This document shows positions 1 through 50,995 of a stretch of 64,000 bases of DNA, piece after piece. A model generated the notes under the pieces. It was not told where the DNA came from. It worked only from the letters and a program-made list of their open reading frames with translations, and did not search any database. Position 1 is the stretch's first letter; the number at the start of each line of letters is the position of its first letter. A program made the translations under genes and the position numbers. Origin of the DNA: Desulfatibacillum sp. (GTDB lineage: Bacteria; Desulfobacterota; Desulfobacteria; Desulfobacterales; SpSt-501); assembly GCA_020725555.1 (NCBI GenBank), contig DYEU01000018.1, positions 143,113-207,112 on the forward strand, written 5' to 3'.

Positions 1-1078
1 GCCCCGGCGCGGAGGAGACGTGGATTTCGCCGCCGTGCTGTTCCACGATCTGGCGGGTGATGAACAGCCCAAGCCCCGTCCCCCGATCCCCCTTGGAAGA
101 AAAAAAGGGCGTGAACAGCTTGCCCTGGGTTTCCTCGTCCATGCCGGCCCCGTTGTCGAGAACGGTGAATTCGATCCGGTTCTTCTTGGGCCGCAGCCCG
201 AAGACGATGCGGGCCGGCCTGCGGGCGCCGGGGTCCCGGCAGGCATCGAGGGCGTTTTCGAGGAGGTGGGTCAGGGCGGCCTGCAGATAGGCGGGGGACG
301 CCTGGATCCGGCCGGCCCGCGGGTCGAATTCGGTGCTGAACCGGACCCCCGCCGCCGCCATCTTCTCCCTCACGGCGGCGGCGGTCTCTTCGGCCAGGCC
401 GAGCGCGTCGACCCGTTCAAGCTTGAGCTCGCGCTTTTTCGAGTAATAGAGAATGTCCAGAACGACGCGGCGGATCCGCTCCAGCCGCTGCTTGACGACC
501 TCCCAGCCCTCGACGATCTCCTCCCGGCGATCCCGCGCCAGCCCCTGGTCCACGAGGTACACGCCCGCGTCCAACCCGGTGAGCAACCCCTTGAGCGCAT
601 GCGAGATCGAGCCGAGCATCAGGCCGAGTGTGGACAGGTGGCTTTGCAGCTCGCTCTTCTCCGCGACCAGCCGCTCCAGGCGCTGCAGGTACTCCCGGAG
701 CTTTTCCCGGATCTGGATCCGTTCGACGGCGCGCCGCAGCGCGATCTCCAACGCCTCGACGTGGATGGGCTTGGTGATGAAGTCGGTCGCCTCGTGCTTC
801 AGGCTGCGGATCGCGAGGTCCAGGTCGCCGTGGCCGGTGATCATGATCACCTCGGTCTCCGGAGAGCGGTTCTTGATGCGGCGCAGCAGCTCAATCCCGT
901 CGAGGCCCGGCATCTTGATGTCCGTCAGCACGATCGGGGGCTGGAGGGCGGCGAAGCGCTCGAGGGCCTCCTCGCCGTTTTCGGCCTCGACGACTTCGAA
1001 GCCCAGCTCGCCGAGCGGCAGGCGCAGCACCTCCCGGATGTCCCTCTCGTCGTCGACCAGCAGGACCCGGTTATCCAT
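1..1078 (-). CDS. Receiver-histidine kinase hybrid, 3' end outside window
   Basis: Signal-transduction protein of which 359 codons are visible; the end lies beyond base 1. Residues 1-120 form a complete receiver domain: acidic pair after VLLV, phospho-acceptor Asp in LTDIKMPG, and a conserved Lys in ITKP. A helical linker and a HisKA-like segment (SISHALKG) follow, then an HATPase domain with the N box (ENALDA), DNGAGM and GTGLGL motifs. The ATG at 1078 lies inside the last codons of the sensor kinase gene (8 bp overlap), so the two are translationally coupled. It is the last visible gene of the Hdr operon and could receive phosphate from the neighbouring kinase. No DNA-binding domain is seen in the visible part. 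Confidence 0.88.
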   Translation of the reverse strand, partial: MDNRVLLVDDERDIREVLRLPLGELGFEVVEAENGEEALERFAALQPPIVLTDIKMPGLDGIELLRRIKNRSPETEVIMITGHGDLDLAIRSLKHEATDFITKPIHVEALEIALRRAVERIQIREKLREYLQRLERLVAEKSELQSHLSTLGLMLGSISHALKGLLTGLDAGVYLVDQGLARDRREEIVEGWEVVKQRLERIRRVVLDILYYSKKRELKLERVDALGLAEETAAAVREKMAAAGVRFSTEFDPRAGRIQASPAYLQAALTHLLENALDACRDPGARRPARIVFGLRPKKNRIEFTVLDNGAGMDEETQGKLFTPFFSSKGDRGTGLGLFITRQIVEQHGGEIHVSSAPG

Positions 1079-3380
1079 GGCCGTTCTCCGGCAGAGGGAA
1101 TTCGATCACGAAACAGGCGCCGCCCTCCGGGGCGGGCTTGACGCGGATTGTGCCGCGGCAGTCCTTGACGATGCCGTAGCTGATCGACAGGCCCAGGCCG
1201 GTCCCCTGCCCGGCCTGCTTGGTCGTGAAAAACGGCTCGAAGATCCGCTCGGCGAGGTGCGGCGGTACCCCCACCCCCGTGTCGCGGATCTCGCAGACCA
1301 CGTTCCGCCCGCTGCGGTAGGTGGCGATGTGAATGCGTTTCTCGCCCCCCCCCGCTTCCCGGCCGGCCCAGCGCTCCTCGATCGCGTCCCGCGCGTTGAT
1401 GAGCAAATTGATGAACACCTGCTCCAGCCGGCCCGGGTCGGCGTCGATTTTCGGCAACTCCGGGTCGGTCTCCCAGACCACCTCGATGCACCGCAGCTTG
1501 AGCTGCTGGCTGAAGACATCGAAGGCCCCGTGCAGGACGTCATTCACCTGGACCCGCTCGAGCTTGAGTTCGGACTTGCGGGCGAACTGCCGCAGGTGGT
1601 TGATGATGCGCGTGGCCCGGTCGATGTTCCCGTCGATCTTGCGCAGCATGGCCTCGAGGGTCGCCGGGTCGAGCGGCCGGCCGTCGTCGAGCTTGCGGAT
1701 GAAAAAGCTGCTCGCGGTCTTGATGACCGAGAGGGGCTGGTTGAGCTCGTGGGCGATGCCCGTCGCCATTTCCCCCAGGGTGGCCATCTTGCTCGCGTGA
1801 ATCAGCTGCTGCTCGGTTTCGAGTCGCTTGGTGATGTCGCTGGTCGTCACGAGCAGCACCTCCCGTCCGGGGTACTCGCCCGGGGAGATGCGGATGTTGA
1901 CGAAGATCCGCTTGCCGTCGGCCCGAAGGTGCTTGATCTGGTTGAGCTCGGAAACCCGGGGCAACAGCTCCCGGTAGGATTCCCGTTCCTCCGGGAAAAA
2001 ATAATCCAGAAACGAGCGTTGCAGGGCCTCCTCCCGTGTGTGGCCGTAAACCGTCGTCACGCTGCGGTTGCAGTCGACCACGTCGAGCGTGCGGGCATCC
2101 ACGACGAAGACCGGGTTGGGGATGTGGTTGAAGATCTCGTGATACTTCTTCTCGGAGCGCGCCAGCTGCTCCTCGAGCAGTTTGCGCTCGGTGATGTCCA
2201 GGCTCATCTCGAGCGCGGCGACCACCTCCCCCTGCCGGTTGTGGATGGGGGTCGTCCGAAAAATCCAGTGGGCGACGCTGCCGTCCTTGTTCAACCCGCT
2301 CTCCTCGCCCTGGTGCGGCTGCCCGTCCTCGAACGTCAGGGCCACCGGGCAGCGGGGGCAAGGCTCCTCCCGGCCCTTGTAGGCCCGGTAGCAGGTGTCG
2401 TTCTCGCGGGGCGCGAACCGCTCGGCGAATTCGCGGTTGAAGCGGAGCAGCCGGAAGTTCCGGTCCTGCAGGGTGATCAGGCAGGGGACGTTTTCGAAGA
2501 GGGTCTGGTATTCCTCGCGCTGAGCGTTCAGCTCCCCTTGTTTTTGCGCAATCTCGAGGCTCATCGTCTGGATCGCGCGGGCGAGCTGGCCCATTTCGTC
2601 TCGGCGTGCGACCGGGATGGGGTCGGGCGGCAACCCGCGGGCGATCCGCCGCGTTCCCGCAATCAGGTTCTGGACGGGCCGGTTGACAAACACGACGAGC
2701 AGGACGGCGAGCAGGCCCGAGGTGAGCAGAAAGACCGCCGCGGCCAGCCCGACCACGGCGCGCTTGCCCACGGCCAGCTCCCGGTCGGTGTCGGCGAGCG
2801 AGACCACGACGTCCAGGGCGCCGAGAATTTTCTTGTCTTCGGGGTGGATGTGGCAGGCGCCCGAGGAGCACCCCGGTTCGTTGTAGATCGGGCTGAGGAT
2901 GCCGATCCGGCGCGGCTCGCCGGGGACGGCCAGGATGCGCGTGCGGGAGGGAAGATCCAGATCGACGAGCGGCGGCTCCGTGCGGTGGCAGATGTCGCAG
3001 GCCTCGGCCTTGATGTTGGTTCTCGTGTCCACCTCGGCCGGTCGGTTGGAGAACTTGATCTCCCCCTCCTTGTTGTAGATGCGGATGTTGCGGATCTCGG
3101 GCTGGGTGCCGATGTTGGCGATGATCTGCGTGATGTCGTCGCGGGAATTGAGCATCATCGCGTAGTGCGTGCCCAGGCGGATCGTGTTGGTGAGGCGGTC
3201 GGTCGAGACGACGACGCTTTCCATGAGCTTGCGCTCCTGGTAGCTCGTGTTGAAATAGGCCCACGTCGCGATGGAAACGAACAGCGTCACCCCGACGGCG
3301 GAGATCAACCGCACCACGAGACGGTGCGGCAGCGCCGGAAGCCCCCCACCGCCCTCCCTCGCCTCCAGGCCGGTCTTCAT
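1071..3380 (-). CDS. Membrane sensor histidine kinase with two c-type haem motifs and two PAS domains
   Basis: Predicted inner-membrane kinase of 769 aa. A transmembrane segment at about 21-41 and another at 206-232 bracket an extracytoplasmic sensor. The sensor carries CDICH (C128, C131, H132) and a CX4CH motif (C171, C176, H177), typical of covalent c-type haem attachment. HAMP (233-282), a PAS (290-400) with Cys 330/341/344, a second PAS (405-520), HisKA (phospho-accepting H544 in GIAHELNQ) and HATPase follow. The ATG overlaps the hdrB stop by 4 bp. There is no receiver of its own, so phosphate must go to another protein; candidates in the same operon are the next gene and the receiver inside HdrA. 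Redox or ligand sensing by haem is inferred. Confidence 0.9.
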
Positions 3381-4306
3381 CGGCGAACCTCCTCCCCGTC
3401 CCTGCGGTCCGCCGCCCCGTCGGGGCTTCGGCCCCGCACCGCGGCCCGCCCCGGAGGCGTCGGGAGGGGAAGGCCGCCTTCCCCCCTGCAGCCGAGCGCC
3501 TCCTGCGGCAACCCCAGAGCGAGGCCGATGAGCTGGGGCAGGTAGAGCACGGTGCGGGCAAGATCGCGGCGCAATCGACGGCTTGCGGGCCCCTGAAAGG
3601 CCACGAGGTTCATCTGGCACATGGGGCAGACCGTGGCCACGGCGTCCGCGCCCCGGGCGTCGTCCAGGATCGCCGCGATGCGCGACAGCCCGGCCTCCCG
3701 TTGGGTGCTGGCCAGCGAGGCCCCGCAGCACGCCCCGCCCGATCGCCAGCGAAACACCTCGGCCCCCAGCGCCCGGATCAGCGGTTCCATCGATGTCGGC
3801 CGCTCGGGGTCGTCGAAGTCGGCATACGGCCGCAGGCACTGGCATCCGTAGTAGGGCGCGATGCGGATTCCCCGAAGGGGCCGGATGACCCGTGCGGCGA
3901 CCCGGTCGGCCCCCACGTCGCAGGCGAGCACGTCGAGGAGGTGCCGCACGCGCGTCCGCCCCTCCGGGCGGAGTTCCTCCACCGACAGCACCTCCCGGAT
4001 GGCGGCCGCCTCGCGCGGATTCGCGCGCATCGCCTGCGCCGCGTGCCGCAGGTTGAGGTAGCAGGCGCTGCAGGGGGCCAGGACGTCCCGCTTCGCCTCC
4101 CGGCGTTCGGCGAGCGCCAGGTTGCGCGCCGGCAGGACCCGGGCGAGCAGCGCGCCGGCGGCCCCGGCCGCGGAGGCGCCGCAGCAGGTCCAGTCGGGGA
4201 TCTCGAGCAACTCCACCCCCAGGGCGGCCAGAACCGCCCGGGTCGAGCGATCGTAGTCGCGCGCGGTGCCTTCCAGCGAACAGCCGGGGTAGTAGTGATA
4301 CCTCAT
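3377..4306 (-). CDS. hdrB: Heterodisulfide reductase subunit B-like protein (two CCG domains)
   Basis: 309-aa HdrB-family protein, the catalytic cysteine-rich subunit that in methanogens reduces the CoM-S-S-CoB disulfide with non-cubane [4Fe-4S] clusters. Both CCG modules are complete: the first has YPGCS, CCGAS and PCSAC, the second YGCQC, CCGAS and CPMC. It overlaps hdrC at its start and the sensor kinase at its end, each by 4 bp, so all three are probably co-translated. In a non-methanogen the substrate is unknown; a thiol/disulfide or another electron acceptor is possible. The last 40 or so residues are an Arg/Pro-rich tail outside the conserved fold. Confidence 0.92.
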   Translation of the reverse strand: MRYHYYPGCSLEGTARDYDRSTRAVLAALGVELLEIPDWTCCGASAAGAAGALLARVLPARNLALAERREAKRDVLAPCSACYLNLRHAAQAMRANPREAAAIREVLSVEELRPEGRTRVRHLLDVLACDVGADRVAARVIRPLRGIRIAPYYGCQCLRPYADFDDPERPTSMEPLIRALGAEVFRWRSGGACCGASLASTQREAGLSRIAAILDDARGADAVATVCPMCQMNLVAFQGPASRRLRRDLARTVLYLPQLIGLALGLPQEALGCRGEGGLPLPTPPGRAAVRGRSPDGAADRRDGEEVRR

Positions 4307-4863
4307 GGCGCGTTCTCCACCTCGGCCGCCCGGCGGAAGAGGGCCTCCAGGGAGCGGGACGGCCTGCGGCCGAGCGGCAGGGACCCGCGCGCGGCCAGTT
4401 GCAGCCCGAGCGCCGCGTGCCGCAACAGAAGCAGCGGGTTTTTGACCGCGGCGATGTAGTGCATCATGAAGGCCATCTCGTTCACCCTCCCGTTGCGCCG
4501 CACGCTTTCGAGAAACTGGTGATGGAAGGCCGTGACCGCGCGGTAGCGCCTCATCCGCCCGCGGTGTGCGGCTCGCTGGAGGGCGTGCATCGCCTCGGTC
4601 AGCGGCAAGCCGCGCGGGCAGCGCAGGGTGCAGCGGTAGCAGGCCGAGCATAGGGTGAAGGTCCGGCTGCGGAAGATCTCCTCCCCCCGGTCCAGCAGGA
4701 CCAGCCGCCAGAGGCGGCGGGGGGTGAGATCCATGGCGGCGGCGTTCGGGCAGGATCCCGAGCAGGTGCCGCATTGCATGCAGGCCTGGACCATCCGGCG
4801 CACGCGCTCAAGCTCGGCGCCGGCCGGCGGGAGCGAGGAATCCATCACCGGGGGCACGTTCAT
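4303..4863 (-). CDS. hdrC: Heterodisulfide reductase subunit C-like ferredoxin protein
   Basis: 186-aa iron-sulfur protein with two [4Fe-4S] motifs, CMQCGTCSGSCP near residue 30 and CSACYRCTLRCP near residue 75, followed by a helical C-terminal part, as in HdrC. HdrC passes electrons from HdrA to HdrB. The ATG at 4863 is the first of two possible starts; an ATG at 4845 would give a protein six residues shorter. The 4 bp overlap with hdrB indicates a tight pair. An 85 bp gap separates it from the upstream HdrA fusion gene; that gap contains a short CGGGCC/GGCCCG hairpin (4926-4940). Confidence 0.92.
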   Translation of the reverse strand: MNVPPVMDSSLPPAGAELERVRRMVQACMQCGTCSGSCPNAAAMDLTPRRLWRLVLLDRGEEIFRSRTFTLCSACYRCTLRCPRGLPLTEAMHALQRAAHRGRMRRYRAVTAFHHQFLESVRRNGRVNEMAFMMHYIAAVKNPLLLLRHAALGLQLAARGSLPLGRRPSRSLEALFRRAAEVENAP

Positions 4864-4948: not shown

Positions 4949-7900
4949 TCAGCCGAGAGCCGCCTCGATGACGCCGAACATCTGGCGGGCGGAAAACCCT
5001 TCCAAGGTCGCGGCGTCGTTCGGGCAGACCGCGGCGCAGGCGCCGCATCCTTGGCACATGACCGGGTTGACGACCACCTGCCGGCGCTCGGGGTCCAGCC
5101 GGCGCGCCCCGTAGGGGCAGGCCTCGATGCACTGTTCGCAAAGGCTGCAGAGGCTGCGGCGGATGCGGGCCACGATCCGTCCGGAGGGCAGACGCTCCCG
5201 GCCCAGGATGGCGAGCGCCCGCACGGCGGCGGCTTGCGCCGTGGCGACGGCCTCCGGGATGGTGCGCGGCGAAAGCGCCAGACCGCAGGCAAAGACCCCC
5301 TCCTTCAGACCGTCCACCGGCCGCCACTTCGGGTCGGCTTCCTCGAAGAAGCCGTCGCGGTCCAGCCGGGCGCCGTATGCCTCGGCCAGCTCGCGGGGAA
5401 GGGTCGGCACGACACCGGCCGCCAGGACCACGAGCTGGGCCTCGATTTCGAGGGGCCGCCCGAGGATCGGCTCCTCCACCGTGACGACCGCCGCCCGGCC
5501 GGCCGGCCGGACCTCGGGGGGACGCTCCGGACGGTAGGGGATGAACAGCACGCCCTCTTGGCGCGCCCGGGTGAAGGCCGTCTCGGCGAAGCCGGGGGTC
5601 ATCAGGTCGCGGTAAAGCACGGCAGCGCGGAGGCCGGGGCGTCGCTCCCGGAGGGCCGCGATCTGCCTCAGGGCGGTGGGGCAGCAGACCCGGCTGCAGT
5701 AGTTGCGGGGCTCCCGCCGCGATCCGGCGCACTGGATCATCACGACCGCTTCCAGCGCGGCCGCCTCGAGCGTGCCCGCGGACAGGCTGCGCTCCAGCTC
5801 GGCCTGAGTCATCACGGCCGGGCTTTCGCCCCGACCGAAGCCGTGAACGGGCGCCTCCCGGCCGCCGGTCGCCAGAATGACGACCCCGTGTTCGATGCGC
5901 CGCACATCGCCCTGCGGACCCTCGAGGAGGGTGACGAACGAGCCCACCTCGCCCTCGGCCTGGACGACCCGCGATCGCGTGTGGAGCCGGATGCGGGGAT
6001 GCCTCTTGACCCGGGCTTCCAGGTCCTCCCGCAGGGACGGCACCGGGTGTCCCTCCAGGGTGCGCGTGAGCCAGGCGAGATTCCCGCCCAGCCGGTCGGC
6101 CGCCTCCACCAGATCCACCGCGACGCCGTGGTCGGCGACGGCCAGCGCCGCGGTCATGCCGGCGACACCGCCGCCCACCACCAGCGCTGCCCGCGTGATG
6201 GGGATGGCCTCCGTCTCGCGGGCTTCGGCGTTCTTCAAACGGACCAGGCCGCTTTGCAGGGCGAAGCGGGCGTCATGCGCGTCGGGGCGCGTTTCCCCGG
6301 CCCAGAGCGCCAAGTCGGCCGTCTCGATCCACCCGGCGGGCAGCCCGCTCGCCTCTTCGATCTCCCGGAGCGGGGACGGATGCCGCAGGAGCCGGCAGGC
6401 TCCGAGGAGCAGCCGGTTGGCGCCCGCGCGAGAGAGAAGCGCGGCCAGGCCGAGCCTTCCTTCCGCGGTGCACAACGGGGCGACGGGCTCCACCGCGGCC
6501 ACCTCCGGGTCGCGCCGCAGCGCATGGAGGACCGGATCCGGGAGCGCCGGGGCATCGGCCGAGCGCTCGCAGCGACAGAACACGGCGAGGATGCGGGGCG
6601 GCTCGCCCGCCGGGTGCTCGGAGAGCGCTGCGGGCGGCTTCTCCTCTTCGGCCGCCCCCCCTCCCGCGGCATGGAGGCGGAGCGAGGCCTCCGCGGCGGC
6701 GGCGGAAGCCTGGATCACCGTCTCGGCGATGTCCGCCATGCCGCCGCAGGTCCCCCCGATCAGGATGCCGGGATGCGCCGTGCGGCAGAGGGAAAAGGGC
6801 TCCGGGACGAGGAATCCCCAGGGGTTGAGGGCCAGCCCGAGCCGTTCCGCCGCTTCCGCGACGACCGGGGCCGGACGCCGGCCCACGGCCAGAACCACAA
6901 GATCGAAGGACTCCTCCCGGCATCCTCCGCCGGCCTCGACCCAGCGGATCCGCAGCCCTTTTCCTTCGGGCCCGCGGGTCACCGAGTGCGGCCGGGCCCG
7001 GACGAAGCGCACGCCGTGGAGTTCCTCGGCCCGCTCGCGATAGCGCTGGAACGATTTTCCCGGCGTGCGCACGTCCATGGAAAAGATCGTCGCCTCGAGC
7101 TCTGCTCCGGCGACCGCCTTCGCCCGCAGCGCCTCCTTGATGGAGGCCATGCAGCAGATGCTCGCGCAGAAGTCGGCCCCCTCCTGGAGGTCGCGCGAGC
7201 CCACGCACTGGATCCAGGCGATCCGGCCGACCGGTTGCCGGTCCCGGGGGCGCAGCAGGCGGCCCCCCGTGGGCCCGGTGCCGCTCAGCAGGCGCTCGAA
7301 TTCGAGCTGCGTCAGCACGCCGGCAAGCGCGCCGTAGCCGAAGGGGTTCTTCCCCGAAAGCGGGTCGTAGCCCTCCGAGCCGCCGCAGAGCACCACCGCG
7401 GCGGCCGTCAGGGGCAGGTCCTCCGCGGCGGCGAAGCGCTCGAAGCGCTCCGCCACCTTCGGGATGAGGGAGGCGACATCGAACGGCTTGATGAGGTAGT
7501 CGAGAGCCCCGATCTTCATCGCCTCCACCGCGGTCTCCACCGTGGCGTAGGCGGTCATCATCACGACATCCAGCGCCGGGCGCATCCGCTTCGCACGCTC
7601 GAGCACCTCGACCCCTTCCATGCCGGGCATCTTGATGTCGAGCAGCATGAGATGAAACGACTCCGCCTCGAGAGCGGCGAGCGCCTCGGGGCCCGAGGCG
7701 GCCATGGCCGCGGAAAACCCCTCGGCCTCGAGCCACTCCTTGAGCGAATCGCGCACCGAGAGCTCGTCGTCGACCACGAGAATCCGAAAGGAGCGGCGCT
7801 CGGCGCCCGGCAGACGGATGGCCCCCGTCGGGCAGGCCTCGAGGCAGGCGCCGCAGCGGGTGCAGGCCTCGGGGTCCAAGGCGTAGGCGTCCGGGAAGGC

Positions 7901-8356
7901 GTGCGGTGAAGGCCGGTCGATGGCCTTGCGCAGCGTGAGGCCGGCATTGAACGCGTCGGGCGTTTCCACGGGGCACACCGCGGCGCAGCGGCCGCAGCCG
8001 ACGCAGCGTTCCGGGTCGACCCCCCCCGAGACCCGGCGGAGCGTCACCCGCAGACGACCGGCCTCGCCCTCGATGGCCGCCACCTCGGTGTTCAGCCGCA
8101 GGTCGATCCGCTCGTGGAAGAAGCCGCGGCGCAGGCAATGCGCGGAGGCTGCGTCGCGCTCGATGCGGGGAAGCATGCGGCACAGGCCGCATCGATCCGT
8201 GGGGAACTGGGAGTCGAGCCGACCGAGGAGGCCGGTCGGGTGAGGCGCCCGGTCCACCAGGGTGACGCCGTAGCCGACCTCGGCCAGATCCAAGGCGGCG
8301 CGGATGCCGGCGATTCCGGCCCCGACCACCACGGCCCTTCCGACGCGGCGCTTCAT
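4949..8356 (-). CDS. hdrA: Double HdrA flavoprotein with an embedded response-regulator receiver domain
   Basis: 1135-aa protein. Residues 1-175 contain an FAD Rossmann site (VVGAGIAG) and two [4Fe-4S] motifs (C118-C128, C165-C175). Residues 190-305 are a full CheY-like receiver: DD196-197, phospho-acceptor D240 in LLDIKMPG, T268 and K290 in LIKPFD. HdrA sequence resumes at about 315 (GPTGG; C397/C401/C402). From about 588 a second HdrA module begins, with CRC, a second FAD site (VVGGGVAG, about 727), CSRVCC at 887-892 and two C-terminal [4Fe-4S] motifs (1070-1111). HdrA proteins bifurcate electrons at FAD; the receiver suggests phosphorylation-dependent control. It overlaps the FdhB-like gene by 4 bp. 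All invariant receiver residues are kept, so the domain is probably active. Confidence 0.9.
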   Translation of the reverse strand: MKRRVGRAVVVGAGIAGIRAALDLAEVGYGVTLVDRAPHPTGLLGRLDSQFPTDRCGLCRMLPRIERDAASAHCLRRGFFHERIDLRLNTEVAAIEGEAGRLRVTLRRVSGGVDPERCVGCGRCAAVCPVETPDAFNAGLTLRKAIDRPSPHAFPDAYALDPEACTRCGACLEACPTGAIRLPGAERRSFRILVVDDELSVRDSLKEWLEAEGFSAAMAASGPEALAALEAESFHLMLLDIKMPGMEGVEVLERAKRMRPALDVVMMTAYATVETAVEAMKIGALDYLIKPFDVASLIPKVAERFERFAAAEDLPLTAAAVVLCGGSEGYDPLSGKNPFGYGALAGVLTQLEFERLLSGTGPTGGRLLRPRDRQPVGRIAWIQCVGSRDLQEGADFCASICCMASIKEALRAKAVAGAELEATIFSMDVRTPGKSFQRYRERAEELHGVRFVRARPHSVTRGPEGKGLRIRWVEAGGGCREESFDLVVLAVGRRPAPVVAEAAERLGLALNPWGFLVPEPFSLCRTAHPGILIGGTCGGMADIAETVIQASAAAAEASLRLHAAGGGAAEEEKPPAALSEHPAGEPPRILAVFCRCERSADAPALPDPVLHALRRDPEVAAVEPVAPLCTAEGRLGLAALLSRAGANRLLLGACRLLRHPSPLREIEEASGLPAGWIETADLALWAGETRPDAHDARFALQSGLVRLKNAEARETEAIPITRAALVVGGGVAGMTAALAVADHGVAVDLVEAADRLGGNLAWLTRTLEGHPVPSLREDLEARVKRHPRIRLHTRSRVVQAEGEVGSFVTLLEGPQGDVRRIEHGVVILATGGREAPVHGFGRGESPAVMTQAELERSLSAGTLEAAALEAVVMIQCAGSRREPRNYCSRVCCPTALRQIAALRERRPGLRAAVLYRDLMTPGFAETAFTRARQEGVLFIPYRPERPPEVRPAGRAAVVTVEEPILGRPLEIEAQLVVLAAGVVPTLPRELAEAYGARLDRDGFFEEADPKWRPVDGLKEGVFACGLALSPRTIPEAVATAQAAAVRALAILGRERLPSGRIVARIRRSLCSLCEQCIEACPYGARRLDPERRQVVVNPVMCQGCGACAAVCPNDAATLEGFSARQMFGVIEAALG

Positions 8357-10049: not shown

Positions 10050-13000
10050 TCAGAGGCCGACCGCGTGCAGGGCGTCGAGGAGGCCGTCGCATTCGGCGAA
10101 GATCTGCTCTTTGCGGAAATGGCTCACCCGCGCGGCACCGCTCGGGCAGCCGGCGGCGCAGCTGCCGCAGCCCTTGCACAGCGCCTCGTTGACCACGGAA
10201 ACGCGCCGCCGCGCGTCGAAGGCGATGGCCGAATAGGGGCACAGCCCGATGCACGTCTGGCAGCCCGCGCACAGATCCGGGTCGATCGAAGAGACGGTCG
10301 ACGGAATCACGACCGAGCCCCGGCCCGCCAGGGCGAGCGCCTTCGCCGCCGCCCCCGAGGCCTGGGCGACGGTGTCGGGAATGTCCTTGGGCCCCTGGCA
10401 GGCGCCCGCCAGGAAAACCCCGTCGGTCGCCGTGTTGAGCGGGCCCAGCTTGGGGTGTTCCTCGAGAAAGAATCCGTCCGCCCCGCGGTTGACCCCGAAG
10501 ATCCGCCCCACCTCGGAGGCGTCCCGGCGTGCCTCCATCGCCGGGCACAGAATCACCAGATCCACCGGGACCCGCAGCAGAATCCCGGAGAGCGTGTCCT
10601 CGGCGACCGCCACGAGCCCCCCCTCCTCGGGGGGCTCGGCGGCCCCCTCGGTGATCTCCGCCACCCGGCCGCGGATGAAAACGGTCCCCTCTTCCTGGCA
10701 GCGCCGATAGAACTCCTCGTAGCCTTTCCCGTAGCAGCGCTGGTCGATGTAGAAATCGTACACCGGGGTCGCCGGCCCCACCTTTTCGTGGATCAGGTGA
10801 CCGTACTTGAGGGCGGCCATGCAGCAAACGCGCGAGCAGTAGGCATGCGCGTTCACGTCCCGGCTGCCGACGCAGTGGACAATGGCCGCGCTGCGCGGGG
10901 GCCGCGTGAACCTCCCGGCCCCGTCGCGCAGCAGAATCCGCCCCCCCGTCGGCCCGGTCGCGTTCGAGAGCCGCTCGAATTCGAGACTCGTGATGACGTT
11001 CGGGTAGCGGCCGTAGCCGAAGGCTTTCAGGGGGGTGGGGTCCATCAGGTCGAAGCCGGTGGCGAGCAGGATGCTGCCGACCTGGACGGAAATCTCCTCC
11101 GCGGCCATGCGGTGATCGATCGCCTTCGCCTCGCAGACCCGCACGCACTCCAGGCACTCGCAGCAGGCACCGCAGTTGAGGCAGCGCCCGGCCTCGGCGC
11201 GTGCCTCCTCCTCGGAAAGGTTGAGATCCACCTCCCCGAAATCTTGCCGGCGCAGGGAGAGCTCCGCTCTCCGGGGGCGAACCCGCATGCGGCGTGCGAC
11301 GGACGGGGGGATCGCGGCCCAGTCGCCTGCGGACGCGGGCCGCTCCTCCGGTCCGGCTCCGACCGCCGCAGGGTCCTGTCCCTGCAGGAAGCGGTCGATC
11401 GCCGCCGCCGCCCGGTGGCCGGCGGCCACGGCCTCGATGACCGTGGCCGGTCCGCTGACCGCATCGCCGCCGGCAAACACCCCGGGGACCGCCGTCTGCA
11501 GCGAGGCGGGCTCGACGGCGATCGTGCCGCGTGGGGTCGTCGGCAACCCCTCCAGCCCCTCCGGGTCGACCCCCTGGCCCACGGCCGCCATGACCGCGTC
11601 GCATTCGATCACGAATTCCGAGCCCGCGACGGGCACGGGCCGTCGCCGCCCCCGTTCATCGGGGGGCCCGGGCTCGGTGCGCAGGCATTCCAGGCCGACC
11701 GTGCGGCCGTCGCGGCGGAGAACGCGGACGGGGGCCGTCAGAAAACGGATCGCCACCCCCTCGGCCAGCGCATCCTCGATTTCCTCGGCGTAGGCGGGCA
11801 TCTCCCGCCGGGTCCGTCGGTAGACGATCACCACGCTCCGGCTTCCTACACGGAGCAGCGCCCGCGCCGCATCCACGGCCACGTTGCCGCCCCCGATGAC
11901 CGCCACCCGATCTCCCAGCCGGGGGCGCTCCCCGAGGTTGACGCGCCGCAGCCATTCGACGGCGTTCACGACCCCGCCCTCGGCTTCGCCGCCGATCCCC
12001 GCGTTCAGCCCGCGGTGGGCGCCGATCGCCACGAACACCGCGGCGTAGCCCGCGGCCGGGAGATCCTCCAGGCGGAAATCCCGCCCGAGGCGCACTCCGG
12101 TCCGGACCTCGATGCCCGTCCGCAGGATGTAGGCGATTTCCCGGTCGAGCACGTCCGGCGGCAAGCGGTAGTCGGGAATCCCGACCCGCAGCATGCCTCC
12201 CAGCCGGTCGAGGGCCTCGAAGATCGTCACCGCATAACCGCGCCGGCGCAAATCGAAGGCCGCCGTGAGGCCCGCCGGCCCGGAGCCGACGACGGCCACC
12301 CGCTGGGGCCGCTCGACGATCGGCGGCGGGGGAAGCTCGTTCCAATCGACCCGGTCCGCCGCGAAGCGCTTGAGGTCTCGGATGGCCAGGGCCTCGTCGA
12401 CATCGGCCCGGCGGCAGCGGCTCTCGCAGGGGTGGGGGCACACCCGGCCCAGGACCCCCGGGAGCGGCAGCCGTTCCAGGATCACCTGCACCGCCTCGCG
12501 CACCTTTCCCTGCCGGATGAGCTGCACATACCCCTGCACGTTGATTCCCGCGGGGCAGGCGGCCTGGCAGGGGGCCCGGTCCTTCTTGACGATGTCAAAG
12601 GCGATCGGGATCGCCTGGGGAAAGGCCCGGCCGATGGCGCGCCGTGTCCCGAGCCCCGCGTCCCAATCGCTGGGGAGTTCCACCGGGCAGACCTTGGCGC
12701 ACTCGCCGCAGCCGGTGCAGACCCCCTCCTTCACGTAGCGCGGATTCCGGCGGATGGTGACGGTGTAGTTGCCGATGAAGCCGCTCACCTCGCGGACCTC
12801 GCTGCCGGTAAGGAGGGTGATGTTCGGATGCTGCGCCACCTCGACCATCTTGGGGGTTCCGATGCACGCGGCGCAGTCGAGCGTGGGGAAGGTCTTGTCG
12901 AACTGCAGCATGCGGCCGCCGATCGTGGTCTGCTTTTCGACGAGAACGACCCGGCGGCCGCCGTTGGCGATGTCGAGCGCGGCCTGCATGCCGGCGATCC

Positions 13001-13442
13001 CGCCCCCGACGACCAGGACATCCGGATGGACGCTCACTTCCCGGGTTTCCAGGGCGTAATGCCGCCTCACGCGCTCGACGGCCGCCGCCACCAGCGTCTT
13101 CGCCTTGCGGGTGGCGGCGTCCTCCTCTTCGGTCACCCAGGAAACCTGCTCGCGCACCGAGGCCATCTGGAAGAAGTACGGGTTGAGCCCGGCCCGTCGG
13201 CAGGCGGCCTGAAAGGTTTTCTCGTGCAGCCGGGGCGAGCAGGAGGCGACCACGACGCGGTCCAGGGCCAGGGTGCGGATGTCGCTTTCGATCAAGTCCT
13301 GGCCCGGGTCCGAGCACATGAACTTGTAGTCGCGCGCCACGACCACCTGCGGCAGCCGCCGCGCAAACTCCGCCACCTCTTCCACCCGAACCCGGTAGGC
13401 GATGTTGATCCCGCAGTGGCAGATGTAGACGCCGATGCGCAT
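10050..13442 (-). CDS. hdrA: HdrA flavoprotein with inserted GltD/NfnB-like NAD(P)H module
   Basis: 1130-aa protein. Residues 1-135 are the HdrA N-terminal domain (ICHCG, VASCSPRLHE). An FAD site (VVGGGIAGM, about 144) and a [4Fe-4S] motif (C242-C252) follow. From about 285 to 690 a GltD/NfnB-type module is inserted: its Cys pattern (C292, C296, C335, C339, C343), an FAD site (VVGSGPAG, about 384) and a second nucleotide site (VIGGGNVAVDAAR, about 515). HdrA sequence returns at about 735, with Fe-S cysteines (754-770), CSRVCC and two C-terminal [4Fe-4S] motifs. The inserted module would give direct NAD(P)H access to the bifurcating flavin; this is inferred. It is the second gene of the operon, 2 bp after the pseudo-receiver gene. 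Confidence 0.9.
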   Translation of the reverse strand: MRIGVYICHCGINIAYRVRVEEVAEFARRLPQVVVARDYKFMCSDPGQDLIESDIRTLALDRVVVASCSPRLHEKTFQAACRRAGLNPYFFQMASVREQVSWVTEEEDAATRKAKTLVAAAVERVRRHYALETREVSVHPDVLVVGGGIAGMQAALDIANGGRRVVLVEKQTTIGGRMLQFDKTFPTLDCAACIGTPKMVEVAQHPNITLLTGSEVREVSGFIGNYTVTIRRNPRYVKEGVCTGCGECAKVCPVELPSDWDAGLGTRRAIGRAFPQAIPIAFDIVKKDRAPCQAACPAGINVQGYVQLIRQGKVREAVQVILERLPLPGVLGRVCPHPCESRCRRADVDEALAIRDLKRFAADRVDWNELPPPPIVERPQRVAVVGSGPAGLTAAFDLRRRGYAVTIFEALDRLGGMLRVGIPDYRLPPDVLDREIAYILRTGIEVRTGVRLGRDFRLEDLPAAGYAAVFVAIGAHRGLNAGIGGEAEGGVVNAVEWLRRVNLGERPRLGDRVAVIGGGNVAVDAARALLRVGSRSVVIVYRRTRREMPAYAEEIEDALAEGVAIRFLTAPVRVLRRDGRTVGLECLRTEPGPPDERGRRRPVPVAGSEFVIECDAVMAAVGQGVDPEGLEGLPTTPRGTIAVEPASLQTAVPGVFAGGDAVSGPATVIEAVAAGHRAAAAIDRFLQGQDPAAVGAGPEERPASAGDWAAIPPSVARRMRVRPRRAELSLRRQDFGEVDLNLSEEEARAEAGRCLNCGACCECLECVRVCEAKAIDHRMAAEEISVQVGSILLATGFDLMDPTPLKAFGYGRYPNVITSLEFERLSNATGPTGGRILLRDGAGRFTRPPRSAAIVHCVGSRDVNAHAYCSRVCCMAALKYGHLIHEKVGPATPVYDFYIDQRCYGKGYEEFYRRCQEEGTVFIRGRVAEITEGAAEPPEEGGLVAVAEDTLSGILLRVPVDLVILCPAMEARRDASEVGRIFGVNRGADGFFLEEHPKLGPLNTATDGVFLAGACQGPKDIPDTVAQASGAAAKALALAGRGSVVIPSTVSSIDPDLCAGCQTCIGLCPYSAIAFDARRRVSVVNEALCKGCGSCAAGCPSGAARVSHFRKEQIFAECDGLLDALHAVGL

Positions 13443-14135: not shown

Positions 14136-15866
14136 TCAGGGAAGGAGGTCGAACCGCTTGAGCTTTCTCCAGAGCGTGGTGCGGTCCATGCCGAGCAGGC
14201 GCGCCGCCCGGGCCTTGTTCCCGCCGCAGCGCCGCAGGGCAGCGGCGATCCGCCGGCGCTCGGCGTTTTCGGCCGCCCCCCCCGCGGCGGTTTGCGGCGG
14301 CCGAGACGGCTTCATCGCCTGCAGGTATTCGGGGAGGTGGCGGCGGCGCAGCACCCCTTCGGGGCACAGAATGAGGGCGTGTTCGAGAATGTTTTCCAGC
14401 TCGCGGATATTTCCCGGATAGCCGTAGTTGAGCAATTGCCGGAGGGCGTTCTCGGAGACTTCCGGAACGGGGATGCCCCGGGATGCGCACAGGCGGCGCA
14501 GGATATGGCGGATGAGCAGGGGCAGGTCTTCGGGGCGTTCCCGGAGCGGCGGAAGCTCGATCCGGAAGACGTTCAGCCGATAATAGAGATCCTCGCGGAA
14601 TTTCCGCCGCGCCACGAGCCGTGCAAGGCTCTGGTTGGAGGCGGCGAGGATGCGCACGTCCACGCGGGTCGTCCGCGGGGACCCCAGGCGGAAAAACGTC
14701 TTCTCCTCGATCACCCGCAGCAGCTTGGCCTGCAGCGCAAGCGGGAGATCCCCGATCTCGTCCAGGAAGAGGGTGCCCCCATCGGCCGCCTGAAATCGCC
14801 CCGGCCGGTCCTCGACCGCGCCGGTGAAGGCCCCCTTGACATAGCCGAACATCTCGGACTCGAGCAGCGTCTCCGGGATGGCCGCGCAGTTGACTTTGAC
14901 GAAGGGGCGGGTCCGGCGGGGGCTCATCTCGTGGATCACCCGCGCCAGCGCGTCCTTGCCGGTCCCGGTCGCCCCCTCGATCAGCACCGTGGCCTCGGTC
15001 CGGGAGACGACACGCACGTTCTCGAAGATGCGCTGCATGGCGGGCGACTTTCCGACCAGGTCGTGGAAGCGGGCCCGGCCCTGGAGCGCCTCGTCGAGCC
15101 GCCGCTCCAGGGTGAGGTCGCTGAAGGTCGCCAGCCCGCCCACGACGGCCCCCTTCTCGTCGCGCAGCGGCAGGTGGCGCATGCGGATCGGCACCCGGAC
15201 CCCGCTGGCGGTGATCAGGCAGCCCTCGCCCTCCGCGCGCGTTTCCCCCCGGGTGATGGTCTCCCGGAGCAGCTCCCCGATGCGGGAGGCCTCCCCCCGA
15301 AAGAGGTCGCCGCAGGGCCGCCCGAGAACGTCCTCGCGGTTGAATTCCGAAATCTTCTCCGCGGCCGTGTTGAAAAAGGTGACGATCCCCGCCCGATCGA
15401 CCGTCAGGATGCCGACCTCGAGGCTGTCCAGGATGTGTTTGAGGCTTCGTTCTTCGTGGTGGATCCGCTGGACCAGGCCGGCGATCGGCCGCAGATCCTG
15501 CAGCACGGTCAGGCAGCCGGCGGGCCGGCGGCGAGCGTCGAAGACCGGCACGGCGACCCGCGTCACCAGGAAGGCGCTCTCCCCTCCGGCGCCGCGCGCC
15601 TCGACCCCGCGTGGGCCTTCGGCGGGGCCTCCGGCCGCGGCGAAGGGGCAGGCCGCCAGGCAGGGAACGCCGAGGAAGACGTCCCGGCAATCCCGGCCCA
15701 GCACGTCCTCGGCGCCCGCCTCGATGATCGCCTGCGCCGTGGCGTTGATCGCCTCGATCCGGCGCTGGGGATCGACCAGGAAGGCCCCGATCCCCAGCTC
15801 GTCGAGGATCTCGAGCCAGGCGGCGCAGGCGATCGTTTTGCCGCGTCCTGTCGGCGCCGGGCTCAT
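14136..15866 (-). CDS. Sigma-54-dependent transcriptional activator with two PAS domains
   Basis: 576-aa NtrC-family activator. Residues 20-130 form a PAS domain with a Cys cluster (C60, C69, C73), and 140-255 a second PAS. The AAA+ domain has Walker A GATGTGKD (298-305), the sigma-54-contacting GAFTGA loop (345-350), Walker B LFLDEI (366-371) and the GYPGNIREL region. The C-terminus holds a Fis-type helix-turn-helix (LLGMDRTTLWRKLKRF). It has no receiver, so it senses directly through PAS or by interaction with the upstream kinase. The ATG at 15866 follows a GGGAAG ribosome-binding site and lies 23 bp after the kinase stop. It probably activates the Hdr operon. The Cys cluster could bind a metal or Fe-S centre. 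Confidence 0.9.
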   Translation of the reverse strand: MSPAPTGRGKTIACAAWLEILDELGIGAFLVDPQRRIEAINATAQAIIEAGAEDVLGRDCRDVFLGVPCLAACPFAAAGGPAEGPRGVEARGAGGESAFLVTRVAVPVFDARRRPAGCLTVLQDLRPIAGLVQRIHHEERSLKHILDSLEVGILTVDRAGIVTFFNTAAEKISEFNREDVLGRPCGDLFRGEASRIGELLRETITRGETRAEGEGCLITASGVRVPIRMRHLPLRDEKGAVVGGLATFSDLTLERRLDEALQGRARFHDLVGKSPAMQRIFENVRVVSRTEATVLIEGATGTGKDALARVIHEMSPRRTRPFVKVNCAAIPETLLESEMFGYVKGAFTGAVEDRPGRFQAADGGTLFLDEIGDLPLALQAKLLRVIEEKTFFRLGSPRTTRVDVRILAASNQSLARLVARRKFREDLYYRLNVFRIELPPLRERPEDLPLLIRHILRRLCASRGIPVPEVSENALRQLLNYGYPGNIRELENILEHALILCPEGVLRRRHLPEYLQAMKPSRPPQTAAGGAAENAERRRIAAALRRCGGNKARAARLLGMDRTTLWRKLKRFDLLP

Positions 15867-15889: not shown

Positions 15890-17437
15890 TCAAGCGGCGG
15901 CGATCGGCAGGGTGATCGTGAAGGCGGCCCCACCCCGGGGCCGGTTTTCCACCTCGATGGTCCCCCCGTGGCGCTCGACGATGCCGTACACCGTGGCCAG
16001 ACCGAGCCCCAGGCCGTATCCCTCTTTCTTGGTGGTGAAAAACGGCTCGAACAGGTGCGGCAGGTGTTCCGCGGGGATCCCCGCTCCCGTATCGGCGACC
16101 CCGACCCGAACCGCGCGGCCCACCGGGTCGGCCGCCAGCCCGATCTCGAGGACTCCGCCGCCGGGCATGGCATCGATGGCGTTGAAGATGAGGTTGATCA
16201 GGCATTGCTGCAGCTGGTTGAAATCGCCGCGGACGCAGGGGAGCCCGGGCGGCACCGTGCATTCCACCCGGATCCCGCTCAGTTCGAGCTTGTGGCGGCT
16301 GAGCAGCAGGCAGCGCCGTACCACCTCGCCGAGGTCGACCGGGGCGAGCGTTTCCTCGGAACGGCGCGAAAACCCGAGCAGGCCGGCCACGATCTGGGAG
16401 CAGCGGGCCGTTTCGCTCTCGGCGATCTCGAGGTAGCGTTTGAATTTCTCGAGACGCGCGCCGCCGGGGGCCCCATCCTGAAGCATCCGCAGCATCAGCT
16501 GGAGGTAGTTGCGGATCCCGGAAAGGGGGTTGTTGATTTCGTGGACGACGCTTGCGGCCAGGCGGCCGAGCGACATCATTTTGTCCTGGTGGAGAATCCG
16601 CGCCTGGTCGGCCAGATCGCGCTCCAGCCGGCGGACCTGGCGCAGGTCGCGGAAGAAGCCCACCAGGCCGTCCGCGTCGCCCTCGACCACGACGGCGGAG
16701 GCCGACACCTGCACGGGGATGTTCCCCTCGCGGGCATGCCGCAGGAGGGTTTCGAAAAGGAAGAGGCGGTTTCTCCCCCCGTAGTGCTCGCTGCGGAAGG
16801 CCTCGAGAAAGCGTTCGAATTCGCCGGGGGCGAAGACTTCCGCGAAGAGCATCCGGTGCAGGGCCTCCTCGCGGCGTACGCCGGTCAGTTGCTCCATGCT
16901 GCGGTTGATGACCATGATCCGCATCCGGCCGTCCGCGCCGAGGATGCCGTCCATGGAGTGCTCGATGAGGCTGCGCTGAAACGACAGCGAGGCGAGGAGC
17001 TGCTGGCTGGTCTCGGCCTTTTCCCGCTCGAGCAGCTGCAGGTAATCCTTCAGGCGCCTGCGGGAGGTGTAGCGCTCTTGCGCGCGCAGGAGCGCCATCC
17101 GCAGGGCCTCGTCGCCGATCGGCTTGGTGATGAAGTCCGAGGCGTCGAGCTGGAGGGCGCGCACGGCGAGGTCGATTTCGCCGTAGGCGGTGGCGACGAT
17201 GACCTCGGTGTCGGGCAGGCGGCGCTTGATCTGCTCGAGGAGCTGCAGCCCGTCCATGCCGGGCATGCGGATGTCGGTGATCACGATCTGCGGCGGCGCC
17301 TCGAGGCAAAGGCGCAGCCCGCTTTCTCCGTCGGCTGCGGTGCGCACGGCGCAGCCCGCGTCGGCGAGAGCGAGGGCGGTCACCTCGCGGATGTCCTCCT
17401 CGTCGTCGATGAGGACGATGTCCCAGCGCTCGGACAC
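15890..17437 (-). CDS. Receiver-PAS-histidine kinase hybrid
   Basis: 515-aa soluble sensor kinase. Receiver at 1-120 (DDEE at 11-14, phospho-acceptor D55 in ITDIRMPG, K105 in ITKP); coiled linker; PAS at about 155-270; HisKA with H299 in VVHEINNP; HATPase with NAIDAM, DTGAGI and GLGLGLATVYG. The start is taken as GTG at 17437 because GGGAGG lies just upstream. An upstream ATG would add 23 residues resembling no domain. It is encoded just before the sigma-54 activator, but that activator has no receiver, so an unusual interaction or a separate phospho-acceptor is needed. The gene is divergent from the DUF134 regulator at 17669. Confidence 0.9.
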   Translation of the reverse strand: MSERWDIVLIDDEEDIREVTALALADAGCAVRTAADGESGLRLCLEAPPQIVITDIRMPGMDGLQLLEQIKRRLPDTEVIVATAYGEIDLAVRALQLDASDFITKPIGDEALRMALLRAQERYTSRRRLKDYLQLLEREKAETSQQLLASLSFQRSLIEHSMDGILGADGRMRIMVINRSMEQLTGVRREEALHRMLFAEVFAPGEFERFLEAFRSEHYGGRNRLFLFETLLRHAREGNIPVQVSASAVVVEGDADGLVGFFRDLRQVRRLERDLADQARILHQDKMMSLGRLAASVVHEINNPLSGIRNYLQLMLRMLQDGAPGGARLEKFKRYLEIAESETARCSQIVAGLLGFSRRSEETLAPVDLGEVVRRCLLLSRHKLELSGIRVECTVPPGLPCVRGDFNQLQQCLINLIFNAIDAMPGGGVLEIGLAADPVGRAVRVGVADTGAGIPAEHLPHLFEPFFTTKKEGYGLGLGLATVYGIVERHGGTIEVENRPRGGAAFTITLPIAAA

Positions 17438-17584
17438 GGGGAAAGGTCCTCCCCTCCGCGGCAGGCGGGCCAAGGAAAAGACCGAAGCACAGGCGAAGAG
17501 GCGCAAGACGGAGGAAACCCGGAACGAAGCCAGTCTACCACGGTTCTTCGAAAAGAAAAACCCGGGAAGCCCAGGCGAAGGTTA

Positions 17585-49615: not shown

Positions 49616-50917
49616 TCAGGCGCCCGGCCCGGCGGCCATCAGGGCCTCGATCTCCTCGACCTCCCGCGGGATCCCCGCGGTGAGATCGACCGGCCCCTCC
49701 GGGGTGATCCAGATGTCGTTTTCGATCCGCACGCCGATCGTTTCCTCCCGCAGGTAGAGCCCCGGCTCGCAGGTGAGGACCATGCCGGCCTGAAAGGGGT
49801 CCTCGGGGTCGACGGCGTCGTGGACGTCGAGGCCGAGCCCGTGCGAGATGCCGTGGGGAAACCAGGTCTTGTAGAGGGGGCGCTCGGCGGGCTGATCGCG
49901 CAGCTCCGCGCGCGAGATGACCCCCAGCCCGACGAGCTCCTCCTCCACGAGACGGCGGACCTCCTCGTGGTAGGCGGCCCAGGGGGTGCCCGGCCGCATC
50001 AGGGCGATCGCCGCCTTCTGCACCCGCAGCACGGCCTCGTAGACTTGGCGCTGCCGCGGGCTGAAGCGGCCGCTCACGGGCACCGTGCGCGAGAGGTCGC
50101 CCGCGTAGTGCGCGTACTCGGCGCCGAAGTCGAGCAGCACGAGCTCCCCCGCGCGGCAGCAGCGGTCGTTGTGCACGTAATGGAGGACGCAGGCGTTCTC
50201 GCCCGAGGCGACGATCGGCTCGAAGGCGGGGCCCCGCGAGCGCCGGCGCAGGAACTCGTGGACGATCTCGGCCTCGATCTCGAACTCCCAGACGCCGGGG
50301 CGGATGAAGCCGAGCAGCCGGCGGAAGGCGGCGCCGGTGATCTCCGCCGCCTGCCGGATGAGCTCGATTTCGATCGGGGATTTCACCGCCCGCAGGCGCC
50401 TGAGCAGCGGGGCGAGCCGCTCGTAGCGGTGCAGCGGAAACCGGCCAAGGCAGCGGCGGGCAAAGCGCGCATCGCGCGTTTCGACCTCGCTTGCGGCGCG
50501 GGGGTGCTCGTTGGCGTTCAGGTAGATCCGCTCGGCCTCGAGCGCCAGGCGGCGGAAGGCGGCCTCGAACTCGAGGACCGAGCGCACCGTCGCCACGCCG
50601 GAGCGCCGGCGCGCCTCCTCGAAGGCGAGCGGGGCCCCCTCCCAGAGGGCCAGGCGCTCGTCGGCGGGCCGCACGAAGAGGATTTCGCGGTCCCCCGCCT
50701 CGCGCGCCTGGGGGAAGAGCAGCAGCACCGTCTCTTCCTGGTCGATGCCGCAGAGGTAGAAGAGATCGCTCTGCTGCCGGAAGGGGTGGACGCCGTCGCC
50801 GCTCGTGGGCATGCGGTCGTTGCCGTGCAGCACGGCGAGGGAGCGGGGCTCAAGCAGGGCGGCCAGCCGGTTTCGGTTGGCGGCGAAGAACGCGGGGTCG
50901 ATGGGCGGGGTGCGCAT
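49616..50917 (-). CDS. pepP: Xaa-Pro aminopeptidase (M24 family)
   Basis: 433-aa metallopeptidase. An N-terminal creatinase-like domain ([19 protein letters not shown]) is followed by the pita-bread fold with metal ligands in [18 protein letters not shown] (two Asp), [15 protein letters not shown] (His) and the Glu residues in LTCEPGLY and IRIENDIWI. It removes N-terminal residues before proline using two Mn2+ or Co2+ ions. The ATG at 50917 is chosen by family length. It is divergent from uvrA, 78 bp apart. Confidence 0.93.
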
Positions 50918-50956
50918 CAGCAGGCTCCGTCCGGGGGCTGCGCCGCGGGGACCCGT

Positions 50957-50985
50957 TTGCCAACCGTTTCCGCGCGGCTTATGTT
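50957..50985 (+). promoter_or_regulatory. Promoter of the tandem uvrA gene
   Basis: TTGCCA (50957-50962), 17 bp, TATGTT (50980-50985): a good sigma-70-type match. The ATG at 50996 lies about four bases after the expected transcription start, so the message would be nearly leaderless. This excludes the ATG at 50981, which lies in the -10 box. Confidence 0.6.
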
Positions 50986-50995
50986 TGCCTTCGCC

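Follow-up and report, generated by a model that had tools for sequence, protein, structure and literature searches.

HdrA complexes set how energy is shared among NAD(P)H, ferredoxin and thiols in anaerobes. In Desulfobacterium autotrophicum HRM2, HdrL was described as a fusion of heterodisulfide reductase and glutamate synthase (Strittmatter et al. 2009, PMC2702500), and locus VIII carries hdrL and hdrA4 in tandem with mvhD, fdhB and hdrBC (PMC2702500). Both the fusion and the tandem operon are therefore already known, having been described in 2009, and the archaeal insert was described in 2022 and 2025. NADH is favoured as the cofactor of archaeal type III HdrA (2025 paper, PMC12054007), and NADH:viologen activity has been reported for the HdrA of the Moorella thermoacetica MTHFR complex (PMC9430772). 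No biochemical study of the operon was found in the literature searched.

The window, by which we mean the whole 64-kb stretch of DNA analyzed here, has a G+C content of 72% and belongs to a genome of 3.59 Mb in 35 contigs. On its minus strand (Table 1), genes for a receiver-PAS-kinase, a PAS-containing sigma-54 activator, a small degenerate receiver-like ORF, HdrA-GltD and MvhD are followed by those for an FdhB-like protein, a second HdrA with a receiver, HdrC, HdrB, a histidine kinase and a receiver-kinase hybrid. With mvhD, fdhB, a second hdrA and hdrBC beside the fusion gene, this gene order is that described for HdrL locus VIII. The degenerate ORF does not have the usual phosphorylated Asp, and comparable ORFs lie near most orthologs.

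Table 1. Positions of the operon genes, and of selected domains and residues, in the window.
Feature	Position	Strand	Basis or remark
Receiver-PAS-histidine kinase	15890..17506	-	Pfam; kept near the operon in relatives
PAS sigma-54 activator	14136..15866	-	Pfam; kept near the operon in relatives
Degenerate receiver-like ORF, 146 aa	13445..13885	-	immediately 5' of hdrA-GltD
HdrA-GltD (HdrL / type III HdrA), 1130 aa, ATG start	10050..13442	-	Pfam, NCBIfam and PDB matches; orthologs
First half of HdrA's inserted ferredoxin domain, C242/C245/C248/C252	12687..12719	-	Cys invariant in 101 sequences
GltD-type insert, Fer4_20 + Pyr_redox_2, residues ~286-690	11373..12587	-	Pfam, PDB matches
Lys358, equivalent to StnC Lys170; Glu in NfnB	12369..12371	-	alignment
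NAD(P)-binding sub-domain, residues 511-630, with GGGNVAVD (517-524) and YRR (541-543)	11553..11912	-	alignment
RCLNC (C754/C757), displaced RCxxC pair, after the module	11172..11186	-	C754 in 101/101, C757 in 100/101
Second ferredoxin-domain cluster of HdrA, C760/C763/C766/C770	11133..11165	-	aligned with 5odc
E823 and K879, equivalent to bifurcation pair E356/K409	10806..10976	-	alignment; invariant
MvhD (FlpD), 141 aa	9575..10000	-	Pfam
FrhB/FdhB-like Fe-S protein, 397 aa	8353..9546	-	weak Pfam match just below cut-off
Second HdrA, two TrxR-like halves, inserted receiver at 7454-7783	4949..8356	-	Pfam
HdrC	4303..4863	-	Pfam, NCBIfam
HdrB with both CCG motifs	3377..4306	-	Pfam, NCBIfam; Cys of both motifs present
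PAS histidine kinase, 3' of hdrB	1071..3317	-	Pfam; kept near the operon in relatives

An earlier note on this DNA had assigned positions 11373-12590 (-), that is, residues 285-690 of the 1130-aa HdrA, to a full GltD/NfnB unit with its own FAD and nucleotide sites and its own Cys set. A GltD/NfnB-type FAD/NAD(P)H module is indeed present between HdrA flanks, as Pfam, NCBIfam and PDB matches agree. Fer4_20 covers residues 289-365 and Pyr_redox_2 residues 381-675 (Pfam), and PRK12771 spans residues 286-788 with 549 bits, above the cut-off (NCBIfam). In phmmer comparison with the PDB, residues 289-767 matched 9bov (433 bits), StnC (8oh5) and NfnB (4ylf, 312 bits), and the flanks, residues 2-286 and 758-1122, matched the HdrA structures 5odc and 8rvu, together with about 676 bits. 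The module enters HdrA's inserted ferredoxin domain between its two cluster motifs, and GltD thus lies within this domain of an otherwise complete HdrA, as in HdrL and type III HdrA. The predicted structure, a cofactor-free model, has a mean pLDDT of 81 (below 50 for residues 174-194); its single chain matches both HdrA 5odc (TM 0.77) and NfnB 4ylf_B (TM 0.80), each score normalised by target.

The N-terminal cluster motifs of Nfn are RCx2Cx4Cx3CPV and GRVCPQExQCx3Cx13Gx2ER (PMC6405883). Within the insert, the Cx3CP part (C292, C296) and the GRVCPHPCExxC part (C335, C339, C343) are in the expected place, and the Cys of both parts and of RCxxC are invariant or nearly so in an alignment of about 100 sequences. 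Because RCxxC is found only C-terminal to the module (C754/C757), the ligand set is common to the insert and the flanking sequence. The module is therefore present in residues 285-690 with half of one Fe-S ligand set outside them, and the claim of its own Cys set needs correcting: the Fe-S ligands are not self-contained, and C754/C757 adjoin the Cys of HdrA's second cluster. The FAD and nucleotide sites are the module's own, with residues almost invariant across 100 inserts; a loss of key flavin-site residues on alignment, named in the earlier note as grounds for refuting it, was looked for in the same inserts, and the FAD-site residues proved nearly invariant.

The ligand of the proximal cluster sets the insert apart from NfnB. 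At the position of Lys358, 94 of 100 inserts have Lys and the other six His, and none has the Glu ligand of the NfnB type. The GltD flavin of StnC, which lies beside Lys170, does not bifurcate (PMC10482914). Since Lys358 matches StnC Lys170 and not the NfnB Glu, electrons probably enter through the inserted FAD, as a flavin of the StnC type, with a predicted bond between Lys and cluster. The description of the unit as GltD/NfnB-like thus holds for the fold, whereas its proximal cluster ligand is StnC-like. The residues associated with bifurcation in HdrA itself, E823, K879 and C193 (equivalent to Cys197), are invariant in HdrA-GltD.

If the insert were instead a second, NfnB-like bifurcating flavin site, the protein would bifurcate twice, as proposed for ANME-1 HdrA-NfnB (PMC9012536). 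The NfnB fold of the predicted structure is compatible with this, as is the conservation of R426, which aligns with the NfnB Arg that contacts flavin N5. However, StnC has the Lys together with the same Arg, yet no bifurcation occurs there (PMC10482914), the proximal-cluster Glu that the inserts replace is tied to coupling in NfnSL (PMC9503767), and Pfam found no NfnA partner among the operon proteins. Two bifurcating sites are therefore unlikely; the absence of the Glu ligand disfavours an NfnB unit acting as a bifurcating flavin, and the Lys358 signature predicts an entry flavin.

In NfnB, two conserved Arg bind the extra phosphate of NADPH (PMC6405883). The YRR motif, including R542 and R543, corresponds to this pair by alignment and is present in 95 of 100 inserts, which predicts NADP(H) as the cofactor of HdrA-GltD. 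The Moorella HdrA, a relative with a GltD domain, speaks for NAD(P)H turnover by such proteins, but its use of NADH, like the NADH preference proposed for archaeal type III HdrA, weighs against NADPH.

Two HdrA types in one operon, one with an NAD(P)H module and the other with a receiver, had been read in the earlier note as an input arm and a regulated arm. Their co-occurrence is real and conserved across relatives. Counting the window's copy, 60 of 62 near-full-length partner HdrAs contain a receiver, and all 60 receivers keep the phosphorylated Asp as well as the Asp pair, Thr and Lys; every one of the 62 retains the ferredoxin Cys and E354/K407. In the window, the receiver sits just C-terminal to the partner's uninterrupted ferredoxin domain. 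A division into two such arms is plausible: the conserved receiver residues suit it, and an input role for NAD(P)H fits the FAD, NADP and Fe-S residues of the module, all of which are intact. The literature searched contained no description of a receiver inside an HdrA. The first half of the window's partner HdrA has the Cys197 equivalent and no N-terminal domain, and the second half shows the reverse, which recalls the complementary pattern of Chadwick et al. (PMC9012536). The second half of the window's protein also departs from the usual bifurcation pair: residue 897 is Arg, where 56 of 62 orthologs have Lys.

Relatives of HdrA-GltD were found in 40 of 40 genomes searched, namely the window's own and 39 relatives; about half of these, from many families of the order, have full-length orthologs with 57-71% identity. 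Scanning named genomes turned up 529 related stretches; the 80 top-ranking ones, which were retained, are nearly all full length (58-70%) and come mostly from Desulfobacterales or Syntrophobacterales MAGs, with Desulfoferrobacter suflitae as the one named cultured species. The operon is conserved across Desulfobacterota. The many full-length orthologs rule out an insert unique to the window's genome, and an assembly chimera is ruled out because some copies lie in single-contig genomes.

We mapped 100 neighbourhoods, some of which are two copies of one contig. GltD-HdrA occurs with receiver-HdrA in 63 of them, and both kinds of partner occur in one more; 32, most of them short or cut stretches, show no partner gene. 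Three neighbourhoods (L045, L093, and L046, which ends at a contig end) were scored as GltD with a receiver-less partner, and one (L049, with L155 as a second example) has neither GltD nor receiver. In these sister operons, hdrC-hdrB come first, followed by HdrA without GltD, MvhD, the FdhB-like protein and a second HdrA without receiver. L045 and L093 rule out GltD and receiver as an obligate pair; together with L049 and L155, they indicate that the two insertions can be separated and do not form a fixed pair.

This separability would also suit an arrangement in which the two HdrAs belong to separate complexes and have only their regulation in common, the NAD(P)H protein working with MvhD alone and receiver-HdrA with HdrBC. 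Several loci (such as L044, L047 and L048) lack downstream HdrBC, as such an arrangement might allow. Against it, the insert-less, receiver-less sister operons keep both HdrA genes, MvhD and the FdhB-like protein in the same order, and we regard separate complexes as improbable.

The insert has its own history. In several orthologs it is only 43-49% identical to the window's, with HdrA cores at 64-77%, and in sliding profiles the drop in identity starts and stops close to the insert borders. The insert tree groups L118, L129, L040, L112 and L123 with L145 and L139, which are HdrA-GltD proteins of other loci (L145 belongs to the window's own genome), joins L046-L048 to TGA-containing HdrA-GltD proteins and places L045 within the main clade. 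In the core tree, the same five lie within the main clade and L045 adjoins the insert-less L049. AU tests rejected a single clade for all operon inserts (p = 1.2e-6), and they also rejected a clade in the core tree that mirrors how the inserts group (p = 3.8e-6 and 4.2e-71); these p-values are optimistic because the row groups were chosen after the identity pattern and trees had been seen. The conflicting trees and AU tests rule out strict inheritance of the insert with its HdrA, and in several lineages the insert is related to other HdrA-GltD paralogs. The window's genome encodes two more HdrA-GltD proteins of about 1500 aa, L144 and L145 (G000:C6:43000-48700 and 50600-56000), each with an in-frame TGA, likely for selenocysteine, as in D. 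autotrophicum HdrL1 and HdrL3; in L145, the nucleotide site reads CLE and His stands in for Lys358.

CLE replaces YRR in five operon inserts (L118, L129, L040, L112 and L116, the last from the same contig as L040). An acidic residue at this site is usual for NADH sites, and the CLE inserts are predicted to have an NADH-like site, that is, a changed cofactor; the YRR and CLE signatures would thus predict NADPH versus NADH use. L123 and L129 form a mosaic at the sub-domain scale: their HdrA cores are 82-97% and much of their FAD halves about 87-90% identical, with only 27-50% identity in residues 511-630, and L123 resembles the CLE set throughout the insert except at about 514-633 (0/10,000 shuffles). 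The distance of L123 to the main type is even throughout, which speaks against a swap within L123 itself, so the change may lie in the L129 lineage, although either of the two could have changed. Besides exchange, rapid divergence following a cofactor switch could account for the mosaic. Overall, the module looks like an exchangeable part swapped among relatives, sometimes with a changed predicted cofactor, and L123 and L129, which are closely related and diverge chiefly in the nucleotide sub-domain, offer a ready-made comparison.

The inserts of L046, L047 and L048 (the latter two from the window's own genus) have a divergent nucleotide site, which reads GGTxxAVD and has an extended loop where YRR would stand. 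These three would fit an insert reduced to a degenerate structural relic that does not turn over NAD(P)H, but elsewhere, including in the window's insert, the FAD, nucleotide and Cys residues are nearly invariant, which makes this very improbable.

We favour, with a probability of about 60%, a reading in which this HdrL/type III HdrA combines a StnC-like GltD entry module, placed in the inserted ferredoxin domain, with the bifurcation-type HdrA that it feeds. NADP(H) would exchange hydride with the module FAD, which would pass single electrons to a proximal 4Fe-4S cluster, probably held by C296/C335/C339 and Lys358, and from there to a distal cluster, probably held by C292/C343 with C754/C757; we infer these ligands from knowledge of the family. 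Electrons could then reach the HdrA ferredoxin clusters (C242-252 and C760-770) and the HdrA flavin with its bifurcation signature, E823/K879. MvhD and the FdhB-like protein would connect HdrA-GltD to the second HdrA and HdrBC in one complex, in which HdrBC may reduce a disulfide. The window's genome contains dsrA (623 bits) and one DsrC match, which makes a DsrC-type disulfide a reasonable candidate substrate. Through such a complex, NADPH and ferredoxin would be coupled to a thiol/disulfide pair, and the phosphorylatable receiver may gate the ferredoxin-side HdrA. What is directly seen is the order of the genes, their domains, the conservation of residues and operon, and the insert's own history; the direction of flow, the specificity for NADPH, the disulfide partner, the gating and the union of these subunits in one complex are predictions. 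More tentatively, and as a possibility that we rate well below the reading just given, the operon may encode a phosphorylation-gated three-way Hdr complex that NADPH and ferredoxin enter by way of different HdrAs and that has an exchangeable module. Lineages might then change the complex from one cofactor to the other, NADPH or NADH, when paralogous HdrA genes trade the whole insert or just its nucleotide sub-domain.

For the Lys ligand in HdrA-GltD, the conflict between insert and core trees and the YRR/CLE switch, no description was found in the literature searched. Among known proteins, NfnB/NfnL (4ylf, 5jca) share the fold, FAD site and NADPH site of the insert, but have a Glu ligand and a bifurcating FAD and form a separate subunit with NfnA. 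The closest solved relatives of the insert are StnC of Sporomusa ovata and the NfnABC large subunits (8oh5, 9bov, 9n5u), which likewise have Lys at the proximal cluster and match up to residue ~767; these are fused to a NuoG-like protein, not to HdrA. Moorella HdrA (PMC9430772) also combines HdrA and a GltD domain in one chain, but is longer, with two TrxR-like domains and an MvhD-like domain in one protein, and is linked to MetVF. Type III HdrA, or HdrA9-11 (HdrA-NfnB), of ANME-1 and Bathyarchaeota has GltD/NfnB in the inserted ferredoxin domain as here (PMC12054007, PMC9012536); it is archaeal, with a reported GXGXXG motif and NADH preference, whereas the window's protein has GGGNVA and YRR. 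The nearest described locus is that of HdrL, from the same phylum, which shares the HdrA/glutamate-synthase fusion, a second hdrA in tandem, mvhD, fdhB, hdrB and hdrC (PMC2702500); the likeness to locus VIII is one of gene order, compared by description with the Fig. 4 legend of that paper. An NADH site was predicted for D. autotrophicum HdrL, and HdrL was called unique to its strain (PMC2702500), whereas the present operon occurs in many sulfate reducers and related organisms.
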